A DNA stretch of 64,000 bases from Staphylococcus muscae (GTDB lineage Bacteria; Bacillota; Bacilli; Staphylococcales; Staphylococcaceae), in assembly GCF_003019275.1 (NCBI RefSeq), contig NZ_CP027848.1, forward strand, positions 1,054,001 to 1,118,000, read 5' to 3'. How positions within the stretch are numbered: position 1 is the first letter of the stretch; each line of letters opens with the position of its first letter. Shown piece after piece: positions 54,965 to 63,628 of the stretch. The translations under genes were made by a program, and so were the position numbers. Under the pieces are notes generated by a model. That model saw only the letters and a list, made by a program, of their open reading frames with translations, had not been told where the DNA came from and searched no databases.

Positions 54965-55017
54965 AAATACACCCCGAAAAATTGAATTCATCATTCAATT
55001 TTTCGGGGTGTATTTTT
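54965..55017 (+). terminator. Terminator of fdhD
   Basis: AAATACACCCCGAAAAATTGAA pairs, through its reverse complement at 54993-55014, around a short loop and is followed by TTTTTG. The stem is over 20 bp. Confidence 0.92.
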
Positions 55018-55108: not shown

Positions 55109-56320
55109 TTATCGTCTTCTCGGTTTCAATGCTGTTAATCCATGTGCTTTGATTGTCTGTAATAGGTATGGCCATGCATTGGTGCTAATCTTGACATTTC
55201 TTTGACGTCCTATTCTTTTCATCTGCGCCTCATAGTAACTCACACCAATAATCGCACCCAACACTTGATCAATCTGAGGGATTTTAGTCGTTAATCGTGG
55301 TGTTGACAAGTTTATATTACCCGTTCTTTGATAAACTTCAACTAAGTCCGATTGTAGAACGAAAGGTCTTGCCAAACCAATCATTGACACACCATTTTCA
55401 ATCGCTTCTTCCATTTGATCTTTTTGACGAAAGCCTCCCGTCGAAACAATGGGCACATTCGTTAACTCCGATAAGGCAACAGCATAACTTAAAAAGCTTG
55501 CTCCATTTTCATGTTCACTTCCAAATACTGGTGCCTCATAGTTCCCACCAGAAATTTCAATTAAATCAATGCCTAACTCAGACATTGTTTTAACGACTTG
55601 TTGACAATCTTCAAAGCCAAAACCAGTCTCTTTGAAATCAGAAGCATTTAGCTTTAATGCAATTGTGAAATCTGACCCTAAATTTTCTCGTAAACCTTGA
55701 TAAATTTCAATTAAAAAACGCATACGATTTTCTAAACTACCACCATAGCGGTCTGTACGTTGGTTATCTGCTGGTGATAAGAATTGGTTCACAAGATATC
55801 CGTGAGCCGCATGAATTTGAACCCCTGTAAATCCTGCTTCCTTCGCCTTAATGCCTGCTGAAACAAATTTTTTAATCGTTTCTTTAATTTCAAATGTACT
55901 CATTTGACGTGGTGGTCGAAAGGCAGACTTAGCACTTCCAGAGATAGGGACTGCACTCGGAGCAATCGGCACCTGATTCATAGATCGATACATCTGTTTT
56001 CCCGGATGATTGAGTTGGAGCCACATAGGCACGCCTTGCGCTTTTCCTGCCTCAGCCCATTTTGAAAATGCTGATATGTCTGATTGATCATCCAATACGA
56101 TGTTGCCCGGTTCTGCTAAATAACGTCTGTCGACCATGATATTCCCGCTCACTATGACACCCATTGACTGCTTAGACCAATGCTTATATAAAGCAATCAA
56201 CTCATCACTCGGATTGTTCTCTTTATCTCCCATCGTTTCACTCATTGCAGACTTAAAAAAGCGGTTTTTTATTTTCACACCGTTAGGCAAGACCAGTTCT
56301 TCTAATAATATTTTGTTCAT
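55109..56320 (-). CDS. Old yellow enzyme-family NADH:flavin oxidoreductase
   Basis: This 403-residue FMN TIM-barrel protein has LPNGVKIKNRFFKSAMSE at the start, LQLNHPGKQ (substrate-anchoring His/Asn type), HAAHGYLVNQFLSP, NQRTDRYGGSLENRMRF and the phosphate-binding VSTGGFRQKD/GLARPFV. It reduces activated C=C bonds of electrophilic enones or quinones. It lacks the iron-sulfur C-terminal domain of 2,4-dienoyl-CoA reductases. It overlaps the SDR gene by 4 bases. Confidence 0.88.
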   Translation of the reverse strand: MNKILLEELVLPNGVKIKNRFFKSAMSETMGDKENNPSDELIALYKHWSKQSMGVIVSGNIMVDRRYLAEPGNIVLDDQSDISAFSKWAEAGKAQGVPMWLQLNHPGKQMYRSMNQVPIAPSAVPISGSAKSAFRPPRQMSTFEIKETIKKFVSAGIKAKEAGFTGVQIHAAHGYLVNQFLSPADNQRTDRYGGSLENRMRFLIEIYQGLRENLGSDFTIALKLNASDFKETGFGFEDCQQVVKTMSELGIDLIEISGGNYEAPVFGSEHENGASFLSYAVALSELTNVPIVSTGGFRQKDQMEEAIENGVSMIGLARPFVLQSDLVEVYQRTGNINLSTPRLTTKIPQIDQVLGAIIGVSYYEAQMKRIGRQRNVKISTNAWPYLLQTIKAHGLTALKPRRR

Positions 56321-57183
56321 AGTAATCCCTTCCGATAAGCTGCAATCACCTGATCACAGTAATCTATTAATTTCTTTACTTTATCATCGTTATAGCCTTT
56401 GTTAGAAACACGCTTTAACTTTTTACCATCAAAATATGCACCTGTTATCGATGAAACATTTTCTGATAAAGTCAAATAGTATCCCGTTTCAATGCCTTGG
56501 TCTACATCTTTAGACATAGATTTCATAAATCGGCCGAAAAATGATTTCTGTACTTTTTGATCACTAGAATCCATGCCAAGATTAGTAGAAATAAGACCTG
56601 GATGGTACGTATTGACTGTAATATTTGAACCCTCTCGCTGAAGTTTTTGTGCAAGATAGCGCGTTAACCAGATCGTGTAGAGCTTCGCATTGTTATAAGC
56701 AAGACCTGGACTATATTTCTTTTCAAAACCAAAGTCCAAATCTCTTACCTTTGCAAAATGATGCATATATGATGATGTATTGATAATACGGCCTTCTGAC
56801 GCCTTATCTAATAATGGGCGAAGTTCTGTGGCTAAAATATATGGAACTTGTACTGACAACATAAATGTCAATTCGATATTCTCAGCCGTCGCCGTACGTT
56901 CAGTTCCTGCATAAAGCCCGGCATTGTTAAAGAGTACATCAATCTTGTCAAAGTCATCTTTTATATGATTAACAAAGTCATATACTTCATCCATTTTAGA
57001 AAAATCAGCGCGATAAGCAGTCACAGTCCCTTGGGGAGATAATGCCTTAATCTCAGATAAAGTTGCTTCCAATTTCTTATGGTTTCTACCGTGAATAATC
57101 AATTGATGCCCCTCTGCTGCAAGTTTTTTAGCTAAATGCTTACCAATTCCATCTGTTGAACCAGTTATAATAATTGTCTTCAT
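56317..57183 (-). CDS. Short-chain dehydrogenase/reductase
   Basis: This 288-residue SDR has the nucleotide site TGSTDGIGKHLAKKLA (~7-22), NNAGLYAG and the active site Ser-x12-YNNAK. The usual Tyr-x-x-x-Lys reads YNNAK here (~164-168). It resembles the retinol dehydrogenase/WW-oxidoreductase-like branch. It lies 4 bases after the hydrolase gene, with AGGAGAATAAAGAA upstream. Substrate unknown, probably a carbonyl compound. Confidence 0.88.
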   Translation of the reverse strand: MKTIIITGSTDGIGKHLAKKLAAEGHQLIIHGRNHKKLEATLSEIKALSPQGTVTAYRADFSKMDEVYDFVNHIKDDFDKIDVLFNNAGLYAGTERTATAENIELTFMLSVQVPYILATELRPLLDKASEGRIINTSSYMHHFAKVRDLDFGFEKKYSPGLAYNNAKLYTIWLTRYLAQKLQREGSNITVNTYHPGLISTNLGMDSSDQKVQKSFFGRFMKSMSKDVDQGIETGYYLTLSENVSSITGAYFDGKKLKRVSNKGYNDDKVKKLIDYCDQVIAAYRKGLL

Positions 57184-57187
57184 TTCT

Positions 57188-58024
57188 TTATTCTCCTAAA
57201 AAATTAATCAATTCTTGTGAAAATACTTCTGCATATTGAAAAATTGAGCCATGTCCTGCATTAGGGTAGATAATGACGCTACTATCCGTAATCTTATCGT
57301 TCATATGATATGAGTTGACTGTTGGCACTTGCATATCGTGATCTCCATTAACAATTAAAGTAGGCTGTGTAATATACTGTAAATCATCCTTTTCAGACTT
57401 ACCCCAACGTTTAATGGCTTTTAATTGTGTTAAGAAACCCGGTACATTCATCTCTTTATCAGTGAATGCTTTAGAACGTTCTCCCATACGATTAAGGACT
57501 TTCTCAGCTTCTCGCCCACCTTCTTCATCGTGGTTGTAGAATATATAACGCTTCGGATCTACTTTCTTAATAGCGGCTTTGATCATAAATTTGAATGTCT
57601 TCCCAGTGACCTTATCCACTTCCATGCCACCACGTGGTGCTGTACCAGCTAGAATCAAACGATGAACCAGTTGATTATTGGCTCTGATTATTTCCTGGGC
57701 AATCATGCCACCCATAGATAATCCAAGTAAGTTAATCTTGTCATATCCCAACGCTCGAATGATTTCGATTGTCTGTACAGCCATACCTGGAATTGTATCT
57801 GCTACTTTACCTTCACTGGCTCCCACACCTGGCAAGTCAAGCACAATAACATGATGTTTTTCAGAAATTAAATCTAATAACTTAGGATCCCAGTTATCAA
57901 GTGTTGCAGCAAGATGAACGAGCATCACAAGCGGTAAGTCTGACTTACCCTTCCCTACTTCACGATAAGCAATCTGATTCCCATTAACAGTGATATAACT
58001 ATTTTTTGTTGTAATATATGACAT
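57188..58024 (-). CDS. Alpha/beta hydrolase
   Basis: From the ATG at 58024 (AAAAGGAGAAATATT upstream) the protein has 278 residues. The fold is the canonical alpha/beta hydrolase: oxyanion HLAATLDNWD, nucleophile elbow GLSMGGMIAQE (Ser ~106), acid NGDHDMQVP and catalytic His in NAGHGSIFQ near the end. An ORF extending to 58141 would run through the palindromic operator at 58042-58066 and into the rrf2 gene; rejected. It is the first gene of hydrolase-SDR-OYE. Confidence 0.87.
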   Translation of the reverse strand: MSYITTKNSYITVNGNQIAYREVGKGKSDLPLVMLVHLAATLDNWDPKLLDLISEKHHVIVLDLPGVGASEGKVADTIPGMAVQTIEIIRALGYDKINLLGLSMGGMIAQEIIRANNQLVHRLILAGTAPRGGMEVDKVTGKTFKFMIKAAIKKVDPKRYIFYNHDEEGGREAEKVLNRMGERSKAFTDKEMNVPGFLTQLKAIKRWGKSEKDDLQYITQPTLIVNGDHDMQVPTVNSYHMNDKITDSSVIIYPNAGHGSIFQYAEVFSQELINFLGE

Positions 58025-58041: not shown

Positions 58042-58066
58042 TGTTCTTGTATCCAATACAAGAACA
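58042..58066. promoter_or_regulatory. 25-bp palindromic operator, perfect copy, before the hydrolase operon
   Basis: TGTTCTTGTAT (58042-58052), CCA, ATACAAGAACA (58056-58066): two perfect 11-bp arms. It lies 18 bases upstream of the hydrolase start and is the best of three copies in this cluster. The likely binder is the adjacent Rrf2 regulator. Confidence 0.82.
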
Positions 58067-58100
58067 TGTTATTTGAATTAAAATCTGACTTACTGACAAG

Positions 58101-58532
58101 TCAGATTCGTGATCTATTTGCGGTTTTATAAAGATTGTCAATCACATCGTCAAGTGTTTGACGAGATAGTTCTTCTTCCAACTGTTGCTCAATATTCGAA
58201 AAGATCGGCTTTATTGCCCCTTCCATATGCTGACCAACTGGACAATTTTGATTAATATTTTGTGGAATTTCAAAAAGTGTAATCTTGTTAATTTCTTGAG
58301 TGGCAAAGTATATCTCAAGTAAAGACATCTGTTCTGGCGACTTGCTTAATTGATATCCAGAGCGTCCTTGTTGCGATTGAATAAGCGCTGCATTTTTCAA
58401 AAGGACGATTACTTTACGAATATAACTAGGGTTTGTTCCAACACTCTCTGCTAAAGTCTGAGAACTCAACGTTTCTTCACTCTCACTAATCATAGCTAAA
58501 ATATGCAAAGCCACTGTAAACTTAGTGTCCAT
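58101..58532 (-). CDS. Rrf2-family transcriptional regulator
   Basis: From the ATG at 58532 (TTGAGGGGGCACAT upstream) the protein has 143 residues. The N-terminal winged helix reads FTVALHILAMISESEETLSS, LAESVGTNPSYIRKVIVLLK and QQGRSGYQLSKSPEQM, the Rrf2 pattern. It has a single Cys, in NQNCPVGQHM (~95). That matches YwnA/HypR-type thiol sensors rather than iron-sulfur IscR/NsrR proteins with three Cys. I infer a redox or electrophile-sensing repressor of this cluster. Confidence 0.88.
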   Translation of the reverse strand: MDTKFTVALHILAMISESEETLSSQTLAESVGTNPSYIRKVIVLLKNAALIQSQQGRSGYQLSKSPEQMSLLEIYFATQEINKITLFEIPQNINQNCPVGQHMEGAIKPIFSNIEQQLEEELSRQTLDDVIDNLYKTANRSRI

Positions 58533-58546
58533 ATGTGCCCCCTCAA

Positions 58547-58571
58547 TCAACTTGTATTTGATACAAGAACA
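58547..58571. promoter_or_regulatory. Palindromic operator before the rrf2 gene
   Basis: The right arm ATACAAGAACA (58561-58571) is perfect; the left arm TCAACTTGTAT (58547-58557) matches the consensus TGTTCTTGTAT at 8 of 11, with the same 3-base spacer. It sits 15 bases upstream of the regulator start, consistent with autoregulation. Confidence 0.75.
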
Positions 58572-58610
58572 AGGTTATCATGTTCTATACGTGATAACAA
58601 GTCTTTTGTT

Positions 58611-59378
58611 TTATAGTCTCTTACCATCTAAAACAAACGGTAAAGTTTCATCAATACGATAAGCGTGCATTGCTGACGCATAATCTATCAGTTCGCTGTT
58701 AAAGTTGAAGGCATGACGATCATAAAATTCTTGTCTAGCTACTTCATCTGAGAAGCCTATAATGATTGAGGCGTGTAAGTGCGCTTCCTTAGGATTGTCA
58801 TGTGCAACATTCGGCGTATTCCACGTCACCTTATTCCATGGGAGATATACTTGTGAACGTACTTCAGTCACACCAGTTATTTCCACCATTTGACTAGCCA
58901 ATTTTTCATTAACAAAGTTTTTGAACTTAGCACGACTTACATTATCTTTTCTGCGAATATAAAAAACATCTCTCACTTTAGTTTCAGAATAAACATTATT
59001 TGTATGATACCAACGTGATGAGTATGGTACCCCCATGTGCATTAACGTTCGGCGAAAAACATTAATCTCATCTTCAAATGCTAATGCTGTTTGACGACGA
59101 CCACCAATAGGAGCAAGTAATTTATTATATGTCACTTCTGCTATTCCATCGATACGACGATCTTCAGGTATGTGCGTCTCCAAATCATCTATCTTCGGCC
59201 AGAAACCGTATTCTGTTTCACTTAAATGTTGCTGTCGATATTCTAAAAGACCCGGAGAAGCTGCAATTATTTGTGCATGTCCTCCTCGCCAATAGTCCAT
59301 TCCTTCCTGACGAGCTTTATCTTGTCGCATCCATAACAAAATTGAAAGTGAAAATCGTTTATCATAATTTTGGGGCAT
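58611..59378 (-). CDS. EthD-like dimeric alpha/beta-barrel protein
   Basis: This 255-residue protein has two ferredoxin-like repeats. The first holds the EthD motif YWRGGHAQIIAASPGLLEYRQ (~29-50) and the second has FVNEKLASQMVEITGVTEVRS and HLHASIIIGFSDEVARQEF. EthD domains occur in enzymes or accessory proteins acting on aromatic or polyketide-like compounds. It has its own copy of the Rrf2-type palindrome upstream (59402-59426), so it belongs to the same regulon as the hydrolase-SDR-OYE genes. Confidence 0.72.
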   Translation of the reverse strand: MPQNYDKRFSLSILLWMRQDKARQEGMDYWRGGHAQIIAASPGLLEYRQQHLSETEYGFWPKIDDLETHIPEDRRIDGIAEVTYNKLLAPIGGRRQTALAFEDEINVFRRTLMHMGVPYSSRWYHTNNVYSETKVRDVFYIRRKDNVSRAKFKNFVNEKLASQMVEITGVTEVRSQVYLPWNKVTWNTPNVAHDNPKEAHLHASIIIGFSDEVARQEFYDRHAFNFNSELIDYASAMHAYRIDETLPFVLDGKRL

Positions 59379-59401
59379 ATTATCAATCCTATAATTAAAT
59401 T

Positions 59402-59426
59402 TGTATTCGTATCTGATACAAGAACA
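59402..59426. promoter_or_regulatory. Palindromic operator before the EthD-like gene
   Basis: The right arm ATACAAGAACA (59416-59426) is perfect; the left arm TGTATTCGTAT (59402-59412) matches 8 of 11, with spacer CTG. It lies 24 bases upstream of the start at 59378. Confidence 0.75.
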
Positions 59427-59487
59427 AGTTTAGTCGAAAAAAATCTATTTTGCAAGATATTTATTTAAATAATTGTTAAATGACATC

Positions 59488-59541: not shown

Positions 59542-60291
59542 TTATTCTTTAAGCGCGGAATATTGAAATCCCATATATGTATAGCCTTGCTTTACATACA
59601 TATCTTTTGCTGTATCTTCAGCATCTGCCACGAGTATTATCGGTTTTTCTCCTGCTATTTCTCCTACTGCTGCTTGTATACGAGAACCAATACCTTTTTG
59701 ACGATATTCTGTTAGAACTGCAAAACCATCAATTTCTACAAAGTGTTCACTCTGTATCACATTGATAATACCGATCGGCTTATTTGTTTCATAGGCAATA
59801 TAATAATGGATTGGATGCGATACATCTGACAAAATATCTTTCATATAGCGATGACATTCTTCAATATACGCTTCACCATACTCGATACTTAAAGGCGTAT
59901 AAACGGTAAAATAATCTTCTACATTTTCTTCAGTCACACGTTCAAACTGAATTGGCTGTTGCGTCAGTTGTCTTAATTGTGCTGCTTCAATCATATAAAG
60001 CTCGACACACCCCAATGAAAAACCTTCTGCACGTAAATACTGCAACATATCAATGGATGGTTTAATATCTTGAGGAAAGTCAAAGTTAAGATGCGTGGAC
60101 CCTTGTGCTTTATGCGCCTCACCTTGCTGAAACATATCATTTTTAAAAGTTAATAAATCTGGCATTTTTTTATAGCACCACTTATTAGCATCAAACTTAA
60201 GCGGCCTATCTGGTGTTTGATAATACTTCACTCTGTCATCTTCTTTTACTAATGAGCCATCTATATGTATATGGTTCATTGTGACATTCAT
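59542..60291 (-). CDS. GNAT-family N-acetyltransferase
   Basis: This 249-residue protein has a C-terminal GNAT domain (~115-245): YIAYETNKPIGIINVIQ, HFVEIDGFAVLTEYRQKGIG (acetyl-CoA loop RQKGIGSRIQ) and ILVADAEDTAKDMYVKQGY. The N-terminal 100 residues may hold a divergent second copy. AGGTGATAAC precedes the ATG. Substrate unknown. It lies 22 bases downstream of bioY, so it may be cotranscribed. Confidence 0.8.
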   Translation of the reverse strand: MNVTMNHIHIDGSLVKEDDRVKYYQTPDRPLKFDANKWCYKKMPDLLTFKNDMFQQGEAHKAQGSTHLNFDFPQDIKPSIDMLQYLRAEGFSLGCVELYMIEAAQLRQLTQQPIQFERVTEENVEDYFTVYTPLSIEYGEAYIEECHRYMKDILSDVSHPIHYYIAYETNKPIGIINVIQSEHFVEIDGFAVLTEYRQKGIGSRIQAAVGEIAGEKPIILVADAEDTAKDMYVKQGYTYMGFQYSALKE

Positions 60292-60939: not shown

Positions 60940-60982
60940 ATTATACCATCATTGTAAACTTAAAGTCTATATGAGTTTACAG
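60940..60982 (-). promoter_or_regulatory. bioY promoter with BirA-type operator
   Basis: TTGTAAAC (60952-60959) and GTTTACAG (60975-60982) form an inverted repeat with a 15-base spacer, the geometry of Firmicute BirA boxes. The -10 (minus strand TATAAT, 60940-60945) is adjacent and the -35 region lies inside the box, so binding would block transcription when biotin is plentiful. The box touches the last bases of nanK. Confidence 0.75.
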
Positions 60983-61840
60983 TCGAGAAACTGCACCTAA
61001 AAGTGCTGCATTGTTCTGTAATCTTGCCACACTGATCTCAGCGTGCCCATAATCTTTTGGTAGATATTTCTTTACTTGTGGCACAATCAGATTCAGTAAT
61101 CGATCTCCTTGTGCAGAAATGCCACCACCAATAATAATCTCTTGAGGGTCATACATAATTTGAATTTCTGCAATACCACGTGCTACTTCTTCCGCCCACT
61201 GCTTTAACTCATTTTGTGCACTTGCATCACCAGCACTTGCCATTTCAAACCACGCTGGAATGGGAAGATATGGATACCCATTATCAGATAACTGTCTCTT
61301 TAAACCGTTTGTTGATGCACGTTGCTCATAGTTTGTATCTGTTTCAGGATCATAAAGTAAATTTCCGATTTGGTTTGGGCGATGACGTGCCCCTGTCATC
61401 AATCCAAATGCTTTATGATAGTAACTTCCACCAATCCCCGTGCCTAAGGTTAAACAAAACATACTCTCTATGTCATCTGAGCGCACTGTTCGTTCACCAA
61501 GCAAGGCTGCATCTACATCATTATACACATGTAGTTTCTCTACATAAGGTGATAAGTGAGCTGCAAAATCCGTACCTGTATAATCTAAAATATTGGGATT
61601 AGCATATGCGATTTTACATTGTTCACGGTTTACAGCACCAGCAGTTGAAATGCCTACTCGAATATCTTCCAATTGATATTGGTACTTAAATGCTTCTAAT
61701 TGTTTTTTTACTTCTTTTACAATCGCATCACTATGATTTACTGGCGTGCGTACTTTTTGATAGTGAGAAAGCGAACCGTCCTGTGCTACAATAGCTGATT
61801 TAATGTATGTCCCACCGATATCAAATGCGATGTTCGTCAT
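60977..61840 (-). CDS. nanK: ROK-family N-acetylmannosamine kinase NanK
   Basis: This 287-residue ROK sugar kinase has ATP-binding DIGGTYIKSAIV (~7-18), GTGIGGSYY, VYNDVDAALLGE (catalytic Asp) and IIIGGGISAQGD. The Cys-rich zinc motif of most ROK kinases is absent, as is known for S. aureus NanK. Position next to a GntR regulator and divergent nanA supports NanK over glucokinase. It phosphorylates N-acetylmannosamine released by NanA. Confidence 0.85.
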   Translation of the reverse strand: MTNIAFDIGGTYIKSAIVAQDGSLSHYQKVRTPVNHSDAIVKEVKKQLEAFKYQYQLEDIRVGISTAGAVNREQCKIAYANPNILDYTGTDFAAHLSPYVEKLHVYNDVDAALLGERTVRSDDIESMFCLTLGTGIGGSYYHKAFGLMTGARHRPNQIGNLLYDPETDTNYEQRASTNGLKRQLSDNGYPYLPIPAWFEMASAGDASAQNELKQWAEEVARGIAEIQIMYDPQEIIIGGGISAQGDRLLNLIVPQVKKYLPKDYGHAEISVARLQNNAALLGAVSRL

Positions 61841-62519
61841 AGTATTCCGCCCCTTTCATGAGATGATCTGTAAGTAATGCTTTCGCTTTATGGTAATCTT
61901 TCATTTCTAATGATTCATATATTTGTTGATGTTCCAGCATACTTTTTAAATTTTGTTCTTCTGATGTTTCAATCGGTGTACGGTAAAAATAAGCATGTAC
62001 AACTGCACTCATTTGTTTAAATAACTCTGAATCAACTGCCATTAATAGTTGTGCATGAAATGCTCGATCCGCTTCACTATCAAATTGTTCAACATCATCA
62101 ATCAATGTTTGTGCAATGCCTTCAATAGATGCTTGTTCTCTTTCAATCACGTCTATCGCCGCAAGTTCAAATGTGAGACGCAACATCATCAAGTCTTTTA
62201 AATTTCCTTGTGACACTTGGAAACTAAACAAGAATCCTTCTATCAGCGGTCGAATATCTTGTTCTTTAACCAATGTCCCACGACCTTGCACACTCTCTGT
62301 CACACCTGTATTCTCGAGATAACTTAATGCCTCTCTAATGACAGAACGACTCACCTGATAATCTTCAGCAAGACGACGTTCAGTAGGTAACTTATCCCCT
62401 ACTTGCAAATTTTCCTTAATAATATAATCTTTAATTTTTTCAACAACAATTTGTTTCAAACTCTGACGTGACGTTATCTTATCGATAGATTCCACTTTAC
62501 CCATTCCTCTTTCAATCAT
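61821..62519 (-). CDS. GntR-family regulator, FadR (FCD) subfamily
   Basis: This 232-residue protein has an N-terminal GntR winged helix (~17-85: GDKLPTERRLAEDYQVSRSV, IREALSYLENTGVTESVQGRG) and a C-terminal FCD ligand domain (~100-225) with metal-type His (AFHAQLL, MLEHQQIYE, LLTDHLM). It overlaps nanK by 20 bases and is divergent from nanA, so it is the probable local sialic-acid regulator. S. aureus uses an RpiR-type NanR instead. The start is uncertain: ATG 62519, ATG 62504 and a nearby GTG all have imperfect ribosome-binding sites. Confidence 0.85.
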   Translation of the reverse strand: MIERGMGKVESIDKITSRQSLKQIVVEKIKDYIIKENLQVGDKLPTERRLAEDYQVSRSVIREALSYLENTGVTESVQGRGTLVKEQDIRPLIEGFLFSFQVSQGNLKDLMMLRLTFELAAIDVIEREQASIEGIAQTLIDDVEQFDSEADRAFHAQLLMAVDSELFKQMSAVVHAYFYRTPIETSEEQNLKSMLEHQQIYESLEMKDYHKAKALLTDHLMKGAEYYDEHRI

Positions 62520-62661
62520 ATTTTGAATGATTTTTACTTATATACTTATGATCGTAACAAGCAATCACATTTTTGAAAATAGAAATTGTTCAACTCAAAC
62601 CGAAAGCGCTTCTTTCACAATCTCTGTTTATGGATTACTTGATTATTTTTTATCTTTTGTG

Positions 62662-62690
62662 TTGACCTAAAGTTTGTTAACGCTTACAAT
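62662..62690 (+). promoter_or_regulatory. nanA promoter
   Basis: TTGACC (62662-62667) and TACAAT (62685-62690) are spaced by 17 bases. The -10 overlaps a cre site and a GntR-type palindrome follows. Confidence 0.65.
62675..62688 (+). promoter_or_regulatory. cre site (CcpA) at the nanA promoter
   Basis: TGTTAACGCTTACA matches the consensus TGWAANCGNTNWCA with one mismatch. It covers the spacer and -10, so catabolite repression by CcpA is expected. Confidence 0.7.
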
Positions 62691-62700
62691 TAAATTATAA

Positions 62701-62715
62701 ATTGGTCAGACCAAT
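62701..62715 (+). promoter_or_regulatory. GntR/FadR-type operator before nanA
   Basis: ATTGGTC-A-GACCAAT is a perfect 15-bp palindrome with the TGGTC/GACCA core of FadR-subfamily sites. It lies just after the predicted nanA transcription start, a position suited to repression by the adjacent GntR protein. Confidence 0.72.
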
Positions 62716-62746
62716 ATGACAAATATAAATTTTTGGAGGGCTTTTT

Positions 62747-63628
62747 GTGAAGAATGAATTAAAAGGTTTATATGCAGCATTACTCGTGCCATTTGATGAA
62801 GCTGGACAAGTGAAAGAAGCTGGACTCCGCCAAATCGTTAGAAATGCAATTGATGTTCAAAAATTAGATGGTTTATACGTTAACGGAAGTTCTGGAGAAA
62901 ACTTCTTAATGAATACAGAACAAAAGAAAGAAGTTTTCCGCATCGCGAAAGATGAAGCAAAAGATGCAATTCGTCTTATTGCACAAGTGGGTTCATTAGA
63001 TCTAAACGAAGCAATTGAACTTGGAAAATACGCAACAGAGTTAGGTTATGATGCATTATCTGCTGTCACACCATTCTATTATCCATTTACATTTGAAGAA
63101 ATTCGTGATTATTACTTCAAAATTATCGAAGCAACACAAAACAATATGATTATTTATTCTATTCCGGGTCTTACTGGTGTAAATATTTCAATTCAGCAAT
63201 TCGAATCTTTATTCGAAAATGAACACATCATTGGTGTAAAATACACAGCACCTGACTTCTACTTGTTAGAACGCCTACGCAAAGCATTCCCTGACAAACT
63301 TATCTTCTCAGGATTTGATGAAATGCTTGTACAAGCTGCTATTTCTGGTGTTGATGGTGCAATTGGTTCAACATACAATATCAATGGTGTACGTGCTCGT
63401 GAAACATTTGAAGCTGCTCAAAACGGCGATGTGGCACGTGCTTACGAGTTACAACACGAAACAAACGATATTATTGAATCTGTTATTGCAATGGGACTAT
63501 ATCCAACACTCAAAGCATTTTTAACTGAAAAAGGTATCGATACAGGATTGCCAAAAGCACCATTCCATCCATTCAATGAAACACATCGTCCAGTACTTAA
63601 AGATTTGATTACGAAATACAACTTATAA
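62747..63628 (+). CDS. nanA: N-acetylneuraminate lyase NanA
   Basis: This 293-residue class I aldolase splits sialic acid into N-acetylmannosamine and pyruvate. Schiff-base Lys165 is in [10 protein letters not shown] and Tyr137 in [10 protein letters not shown]; the carboxylate-binding motif is GSSGE (~47-51). The start is GTG at 62747 with TTGGAGG upstream. Length equals S. aureus NanA. A terminator follows before nanT. Confidence 0.95.

Follow-up and report, generated by a model that had tools for sequence, protein, structure and literature searches.

The cluster described here lies within a window of 64,000 nucleotides from Staphylococcus muscae (G000:C1:1054001-1118000, in a genome, G000, of 2,095,131 bases), and encodes an Rrf2-family regulator together with three copies of a 25-bp palindrome that are predicted to be its operators. 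Genes are ordered on the minus strand as EthD-like, rrf2, alpha/beta hydrolase, short-chain dehydrogenase/reductase (SDR), and old yellow enzyme, with the last two overlapping by 4 bases. The genes and predicted operators are as follows.

58611..59378, minus strand: EthD-like protein of 255 aa with tandem ferredoxin-like repeats of the dimeric alpha/beta barrel type; heads a transcript of its own
58101..58532, minus strand: Rrf2-family regulator of 143 aa (PF02082) with one cysteine (NCPVG) and recognition helix NPSYIRK
57188..58024, minus strand: alpha/beta hydrolase (PF00561) with a GLSMGG nucleophile elbow
56317..57183, minus strand: SDR (PF00106) with motifs TGSTDGIG and YNNAK
55109..56320, minus strand: old yellow enzyme, NADH:flavin oxidoreductase family (PF00724), with an HAAH motif
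59402..59426, no strand: predicted operator 1, before the EthD-like gene; 8/11 + 11/11, 3 mismatches, all in one arm
58547..58571, no strand: predicted operator 2, before rrf2; 8/11 + 11/11, 3 mismatches, all in one arm
58042..58066, no strand: predicted operator 3, before the hydrolase, SDR, and old yellow enzyme genes; perfect 11-3-11 palindrome, 0 mismatches

The identities of the Rrf2, hydrolase, SDR, and old yellow enzyme proteins, as proposed in an initial annotation of the window, were borne out by Pfam. The EthD assignment made in the same annotation held for the fold and failed for the family. No Pfam model, the EthD model included, matched this protein up to E = 1, and no NCBIfam model matched up to E = 0.001, while structure prediction (mean pLDDT 90.5) gave a monooxygenase-type barrel with ferredoxin-like units in tandem, the fold match extending over most of the protein. 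On this structural prediction, the label "EthD-like" is fair for the fold only.

Scanning the window for TGTTCTTGTAT-N3-ATACAAGAACA at ≤ 3 mismatches returned exactly three matches, compared to a mean of 0.00 in 100 dinucleotide-preserving shuffles. These are the one perfect and two 8/11 + 11/11 copies originally described, and the accompanying statement that the window contains no further copy was confirmed at the same threshold. Gaps of 15-24 bases to the start codons had been reported; measured gaps were near these values without matching them exactly, at 14 bases for rrf2 (ATG 58532), 17 for the hydrolase (ATG 58024), and 23 for the EthD-like gene (ATG 59378). A scan of the whole genome, which had been proposed as a check, gave only the same three 25-bp sites at ≤ 3 mismatches and 0 matches for the reversed control pattern. 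Chance palindromes were ruled out by the shuffle mean and the lack of further genome copies, and a pattern with many genome copies was ruled out for the 25-bp form. Given that the shorter core CTTGTAT-N3-ATACAAG at ≤ 2 mismatches matched 18 times in the genome and 8 times as a reversed control, only the long 25-bp form is specific. A 19-bp single-site pattern (TGTWY-N8-GATACA) matched either strand of 4 genomes between 8 and 15 times each and was too loose for listing further targets; additional targets of this single-site form may exist in the genome.

Relatives of rrf2 were taken from GTDB genomes (37 loci, 347,206 bases) as well as from genomes of the family and class. A weight matrix was built only from the three window sites and then scanned over 3.4-10.4 kb loci of other species. 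Across 48 loci encoding an Rrf2 with the recognition helix N-x-S-Y-I/V-R-K (helix-SY), the best-scoring site of the locus was located ≤ 150 bases before rrf2 in 22 and before the gene preceding rrf2 in 21. It was located before the gene following rrf2 in three more, namely the window locus and its two closest relatives, all of which also have an rrf2 site. The best site was thus at rrf2 or a neighboring gene in 46 of the 48 loci and elsewhere in two Lactobacillus-type loci (L075 and L117), although one of the 46 (L088) had a score of 10.5, hardly above that of the two misses (10.1). Where the site preceded the gene before rrf2, that gene was EthD-like (Streptococcus cuniculi WM131, G373), a nitroreductase (Clostridia, including Ruminococcus, Lachnospiraceae, and others), or an SDR (G101, G095, G020); in Bifidobacteriaceae, the site was weaker and 104-137 bases before rrf2. 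Because the marked neighbor changes (EthD-like, nitroreductase, SDR, rrf2) while the site persists, the site stays with the regulator. This co-travel across genera upholds the initial proposal that the three palindromes are a shared predicted operator of this Rrf2, and a regulon that includes autoregulation by this Rrf2 is very probable from the sequence comparison. Letter counts were made over 37 distinct sites, leaving out the window, its nearest relative, sites < 12 bits, and the two misses.

At ≤ 1 mismatch, TTGTATNNNATACAAGAACA was present in 8 of 108 family genomes, five with this Rrf2 clade and three without (G017, G070, G089); in all three of the latter, the match lies inside an open reading frame. 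Of the 12 family genomes that carry this clade, 7 lack a TTGTATNNNATACAAGAACA match because their sites differ in letters. The broader 25-mer at ≤ 3 mismatches gave, among the matches listed, between 1 and 15 sites in each of 20 genomes, most of them attributable to chance (controls gave 0 to 7 per strand), and Macrococcus-group genomes G001, G003, G004, and G007 each have exactly one site with 0 or 1 mismatch, that before rrf2. A short loose pattern, TTGTATYNRATACARRA, matched 46 of 398 class genomes; close relatives of this Rrf2 were absent from nearly all of the 46, and the pattern was left unused as uninformative. Separately, stretches of Macrococcoides caseolyticum (L091:5001-5177) and of G006 (G006:C7:97565-97753) match only the first ~60 rrf2 residues, and the gene looks truncated in both; in L091, the operator still stands in front of it.

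The recognition helix was compared to the upstream operator using 127 Rrf2-like frames, from which duplicates and matches under ~100 residues were removed and to which two PDB sequences were added. The resulting 93 rows comprised 48 with the helix N-x-S-Y-I/V-R-K and 45 others (YwnA-like proteins and their kin, with helices NPALIRK, NPVVIRR, NPTLVRK, etc.), the two PDB rows being omitted from operator counts (43 others). In a tree calculated without the helix columns, a single branch (SH-aLRT 85) separated the 48 SY rows from the rest. Helix class correlated with operator class: TGTAT-N3-ATACA (≥ 9/10 within 260 bases before rrf2) was found for 23/48 SY rows and 0/43 others, with most remaining SY rows having the site before the gene preceding rrf2, while TGTAA-N9-TTACA at the same threshold was found for 29/43 others (27 perfect) and 1/48 SY rows. 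Mononucleotide shuffles gave 1.5-3.1% for these counts. The latter sequence is the published operator of SifR and HypR (PMC9218516). Both classes occur in the window genome, where the upstream region of the window rrf2 matches TGTAT-N3-ATACA at 10/10 and TGTAA-N9-TTACA at 7/10 at best, and the other YwnA-like Rrf2 (L094) has a perfect TGTAATCATTATAGTTACA upstream, of the TGTAA-N9-TTACA type. Alternatively, the palindromes might belong to another regulator encoded elsewhere, with rrf2 merely one of its targets, as Rrf2 genes can be. Nothing direct favors this explanation, and it is highly improbable given that, across phyla, the class of site varies with the recognition helix of the Rrf2 and that no other gene is constant beside the site.

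The broad consensus, TGTATTTGTATCAGATACAAATACA, consists of four TGTAT half-sites in 6-bp phase. The outer-left and inner-right half-sites, as well as the inner-left and outer-right half-sites, each form TGTAT-N9-ATACA, the spacing of SifR and HypR. Half-site integrity was counted on 51 sites picked from relatives' loci, with repeats and weak second sites left out. The TGT and ACA of a 19-bp pair were intact in 42 of these and the inner pair in 33; a 19-bp pair without an inner pair occurred in 13 and the reverse in 4. By half-site, TGT was intact in 39 (outer left), 35 (inner left), 49 (inner right), and 28 (outer right). Exact TGTAT-N9-ATACA occurred 23 times in the 347,206 bases of the 37 loci, 21 at operator positions and 2 not (related loci L081 and L082); Staphylococcus and Streptococcus sites fall outside this exact count because their outer half is TGTTC. 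The 21 include sites directly before rrf2 in Lactobacillus L075 and L090 and one in Carnobacterium L060 before the gene for a medium-chain dehydrogenase/reductase (MDR). L117 likewise has the 19-bp form directly before rrf2; L075 and L117 are the two loci missed by the 25-bp matrix, and the Lactobacillus sites have the 19-bp form only.

These counts give good support to a 19-bp unit per dimer, a fairly probable reading in which one Rrf2 dimer recognizes TGTAT-N9-ATACA at the spacing seen in TGTAA-N9-TTACA of SifR/HypR. The 25-bp palindrome put forward in the initial annotation is present as described, but is doubtful as a minimal site, since it is probably two overlapping 19-bp units offset by 6 bp. 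That two dimers occupy it is a guess from geometry, to which slightly less than even odds are given. Some iron-sulfur Rrf2 proteins read an 11-3-11 palindrome with one dimer, and a single dimer might likewise read the whole 25-bp palindrome (11-3-11) here, leaving the 6-bp TGTAT repetition without function. The perfect 11-3-11 symmetry of the hydrolase site and the inner TGT-N7-ACA pair kept in 33/51 sites are consistent with this, as is the NsrR/DNA structure, in which the dimer contacts positions 4-6 and ~8-10 from the center, such that one dimer can span at least 23 bases. A single dimer on the whole site is nevertheless rather unlikely, because the 19-bp pair outlasts the inner pair (13/51 vs. 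4 for the reverse), the arms are unequally kept, the Lactobacillus sites are 19-bp only, and the SifR/HypR operator has exactly the 19-bp spacing.

Promoter-like sequences and a hairpin were located next to the operators as follows.

59427..59455, minus strand: candidate promoter TTGCAA-17-TAAACT; the -10 ends at the first base before operator 1; unlisted in a stricter consensus scan
58572..58600, minus strand: candidate promoter TTGTTA-17-TAACCT; ends at operator 2; unlisted in a stricter consensus scan
58071..58099, minus strand: candidate promoter TTGTCA-17-TCAAAT; 4 bases before operator 3; unlisted in a stricter consensus scan
58082..58107, minus strand: candidate rrf2 terminator hairpin, overlapping the rrf2 stop codon and followed by TTTTAATT, a T-rich tail

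Folding of the rrf2 hairpin gave -13.1 kcal/mol (z -4.45) in the window and -13.4 kcal/mol (z -4.99) in S. microti (L056), with a shorter counterpart in Streptococcus cuniculi (L057; -8.0 kcal/mol, z -3.56); the hairpin was not among the terminators found by a general terminator scan. Promoter phasing was counted on 38 sites chosen from relatives' loci, again without repeats and weak second sites, and the best promoter-like match ended directly at the operator in 27 of them. TAAACT is the usual -10 at Streptococcus operator sites. Based upon this phasing and the rrf2 hairpin before operator 3, the most economical interpretation would be three transcripts with one operator each, repressed by steric blocking; repression is supported by the predicted placement of the operators at the -10 box. 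The inverted repeat GTTATCA-N11-TGATAAC at window 58574-58598, in the spacer of the rrf2 promoter, was considered as a further operator and rejected, having no counterpart by eye in S. microti.

The window Rrf2 matched PF02082 at 100.2 bits (cut-off 30), and its only cysteine is residue 97, in NCPVG, in agreement with the regulator originally described. Comparison with the PDB relative YwnA (1xd7) gave an E of 3.8e-27 and 39% identity over the aligned part, and the window cysteine aligns with the YwnA cysteine (CPV, start of helix alpha-5). In PMC9218516, the YwnA cysteine is equated with the quinone-reactive residue C102 of SifR, where a quinone adduct leads to release from DNA. The cysteine column was C in all 93 aligned Rrf2 rows (48/48 helix-SY, 45/45 others), and a single cysteine was present in 116 of the best 120 of 418 homologues and in 27 of the 48 helix-SY rows. 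By analogy, the signal is probably a quinone-like or other soft electrophile. The same genome also encodes a very divergent Rrf2 relative (G000:C1:847648-848037, L096), with an NPSAVRQ helix, NPDCGPG, and neither operator type upstream; this protein has the longest branch of the tree (2.49).

In relatives' operons, rrf2 is often followed by an MDR enzyme, then by the hydrolase and sometimes an SDR. The nearest NCBIfam model to the MDR enzyme is the PIG3 quinone-oxidoreductase family, with a score below its cut-off. Identity of the hydrolase is ~76-80% for most of Streptococcus, Carnobacterium, and S. americanisciuri. An MDR gene is absent from the clusters of the window, G097, and S. microti, which carry an SDR and old yellow enzyme in its stead; loss of a quinone-reductase-like MDR gene from the window cluster by relocation was considered and rejected, as the one genome relative (C1:1474473, 45% identity) has no operator in the stretch inspected. 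In G101, SDR, rrf2, old yellow enzyme, hydrolase, and MDR genes occur together at 44-59% identity, and in Macrococcus, the gene accompanying rrf2 encodes an old yellow enzyme (52-54%), or else an MDR gene is present along with MsrA (MsrA nearby in L065). A second Rrf2 (YwnA/SifR-type) with a YwnB-like NAD(P)-binding gene was observed in 4 of 39 loci (L057:2043-3873, L062:3569-4623, L176:1853-2969, L182:328-1407), which span different genera; the two sensor types may work together.

The reductases and hydrolase are of kinds found in electrophile-stress regulons, consistent with the detoxification-type content initially proposed, and judging from their families, the reductase set would suit reductive detoxification. 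A non-electrophile signal (hypochlorite, disulfide stress, or reactive sulfur) or a structural cysteine, with the genes being catabolic (e.g., for a plant phenolic), was weighed against this and appears quite unlikely. The HypR disulfide needs two cysteines, whereas the window protein has one; the enzymes vary by species (nitroreductase, MDR, SDR, old yellow enzyme, MsrA), which fits generalist reductive detoxification better than catabolism; the cluster has no transporter or ring-cleavage gene; and a similarity to chalcone isomerase is of fold only (~8% identity). No support was found for the host- or plant-derived substrate suggested in the initial annotation.

A thiol-switch repressor regulon is considered quite likely as the full mechanism of this locus. 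The reduced Rrf2 dimer would bind the three palindromes, each situated where a -10 box ends on its 3' side, and block its own gene, the EthD-like gene, and the hydrolase-SDR-old yellow enzyme operon. A reactive electrophile, for which quinones and alpha,beta-unsaturated carbonyls are the likeliest candidates, would then modify by addition the cysteine that begins the dimerization helix, and the modified Rrf2 would leave the DNA, allowing the old yellow enzyme, SDR, hydrolase, and barrel protein to be made. In relatives, the quinone-reductase-like MDR enzyme and nitroreductase would be made on release. A wider proposal is offered tentatively, with the odds somewhat against it: Rrf2 proteins with helix N-x-S-Y may be a separate, horizontally spread set of thiol electrophile sensors (Bacillota and some Actinomycetota) with a DNA code of their own, in which a change of two recognition-helix residues to Ser-Tyr would correspond to a single-letter difference in the half-site, TGTAA becoming TGTAT. 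Most would bind a doubled operator with two dimers 6 bp (~half a helical turn) apart, and release would be cooperative and switch-like.

Several observations count against these proposals. The Rrf2 rows are related by descent, such that counts across them are not independent; the SH-aLRT of 85 is moderate and the alignment short; and the helix/operator match is incomplete, with 14/43 other proteins having neither operator upstream, nine of these being the SY clade's closest neighbor group. A total of 2 to 5 cysteines is present in 21/48 helix-SY proteins, mostly from Clostridia, so "single-cysteine" is untrue clade-wide, and 9/51 sites keep no intact 19-bp pair. With respect to promoters, a score of 8.5 was reached by only 19/38 sites and also by 15% of shuffles; the consensus promoter scan found no promoter at the three operators, with a regional count only as chance expects; and in several Clostridia, the eye-read -10 shares the first base of the operator and differs from the scored match.

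The closest known systems are SifR of Streptococcus pneumoniae and YwnA of Bacillus subtilis, which are monothiol Rrf2 quinone sensors (PMC9218516). The window protein shares their Rrf2 fold, aligned cysteine, and predicted repression of oxidoreductases, as well as the dimer spacing of the SifR operator if the 19-bp reading is right. Unlike them, it has a TGTAT half-site, mostly doubled to 25 bp (TGTAA in SifR), and the recognition helix NPSYIRK (NPVVVRR in YwnA). The window cluster is without catE, yhdA, fre, and piu genes, and its genes are clustered whereas SifR targets are scattered. Identity with SifR proper (sequence similarity network cluster 6) was rejected, as the HxxPNPxC signature is not found literally (the window reads PQNINQNC) and the operator is not TGTAA-N9-TTACA. 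The threshold for the monothiol group in PMC9218516 is at least 40% identity over 80% of length, and the comparison here, made with YwnA, gave 39% over the aligned part. The window protein has the aligned cysteine and no further cysteine, the criterion of the monothiol SifR/YwnA group.

HypR, the hypochlorite sensor of Staphylococcus aureus, is also an Rrf2 protein and controls the flavin reductase MerA and its own gene, but is a two-cysteine disulfide switch (C33, C99) with the operator TGTAA-N9-TTACA (PMC9218516, PMC6299908). Identity with HypR was rejected, given one cysteine and an NCBIfam NF041852 score of 56.7 bits against a cut-off of 180. Iron-sulfur Rrf2 proteins (IscR, NsrR, RirA) were rejected as well, since three cysteine ligands are needed and one is present, with NCBIfam IscR and RirA scores far under cut-off. 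The MhqR and QsrR (YodB-type) quinone regulons of Staphylococcus and Bacillus respond to quinones and electrophiles and include nitroreductase or hydrolase-type genes under MarR/DUF24-type regulators; such a regulon was rejected because the window regulator is Rrf2 and not MarR-type. OfrA, an old yellow enzyme of S. aureus, is reportedly linked to thiol-dependent redox balance, with no tie to this Rrf2 operon type noted. One single-cysteine, SifR-like Rrf2 of Lachnospiraceae is mentioned in passing in a preprint (PMC13404960). Searches of open-license papers returned no description of this Rrf2 clade or operator. The initial view that no described system matches was not sustained, since the kind is that of the single-cysteine Rrf2 quinone sensors SifR/YwnA, although operator, recognition helix, and genes differ. 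The regulon is a widespread variant of monothiol Rrf2 sensors and no wholly new kind of system.

If the proposals are true, a second, orthogonal operator code would exist within thiol-sensing Rrf2 proteins, with both kinds encoded by the window genome. The clade would be a small, naturally occurring system in which to ask how half-site choice is determined by the recognition helix and if overlap between sites makes a chemical switch sharper. Nitroreductase and quinone-reductase-like operons of gut Clostridia would also gain a likely regulator and operator, as would hydrolase-SDR-old yellow enzyme clusters of animal staphylococci and streptococci.

Neighboring features of the window were also recorded. 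A perfect 20-pair hairpin with T-rich ends (54967-55013) stands between the convergent fdhD and old yellow enzyme genes and is likely a two-way terminator. Directly upstream of the cluster is an acetyltransferase gene with an N-terminal DUF5613 domain (59542-60291), the S. microti counterpart of which is 65% identical and in the same place. Beside the cluster, 60977-63628 contains ROK-family kinase-like, GntR-type regulator, and dihydrodipicolinate synthase/sialate lyase-like genes which, as read from translations only, are probably for amino-sugar or sialic acid use.
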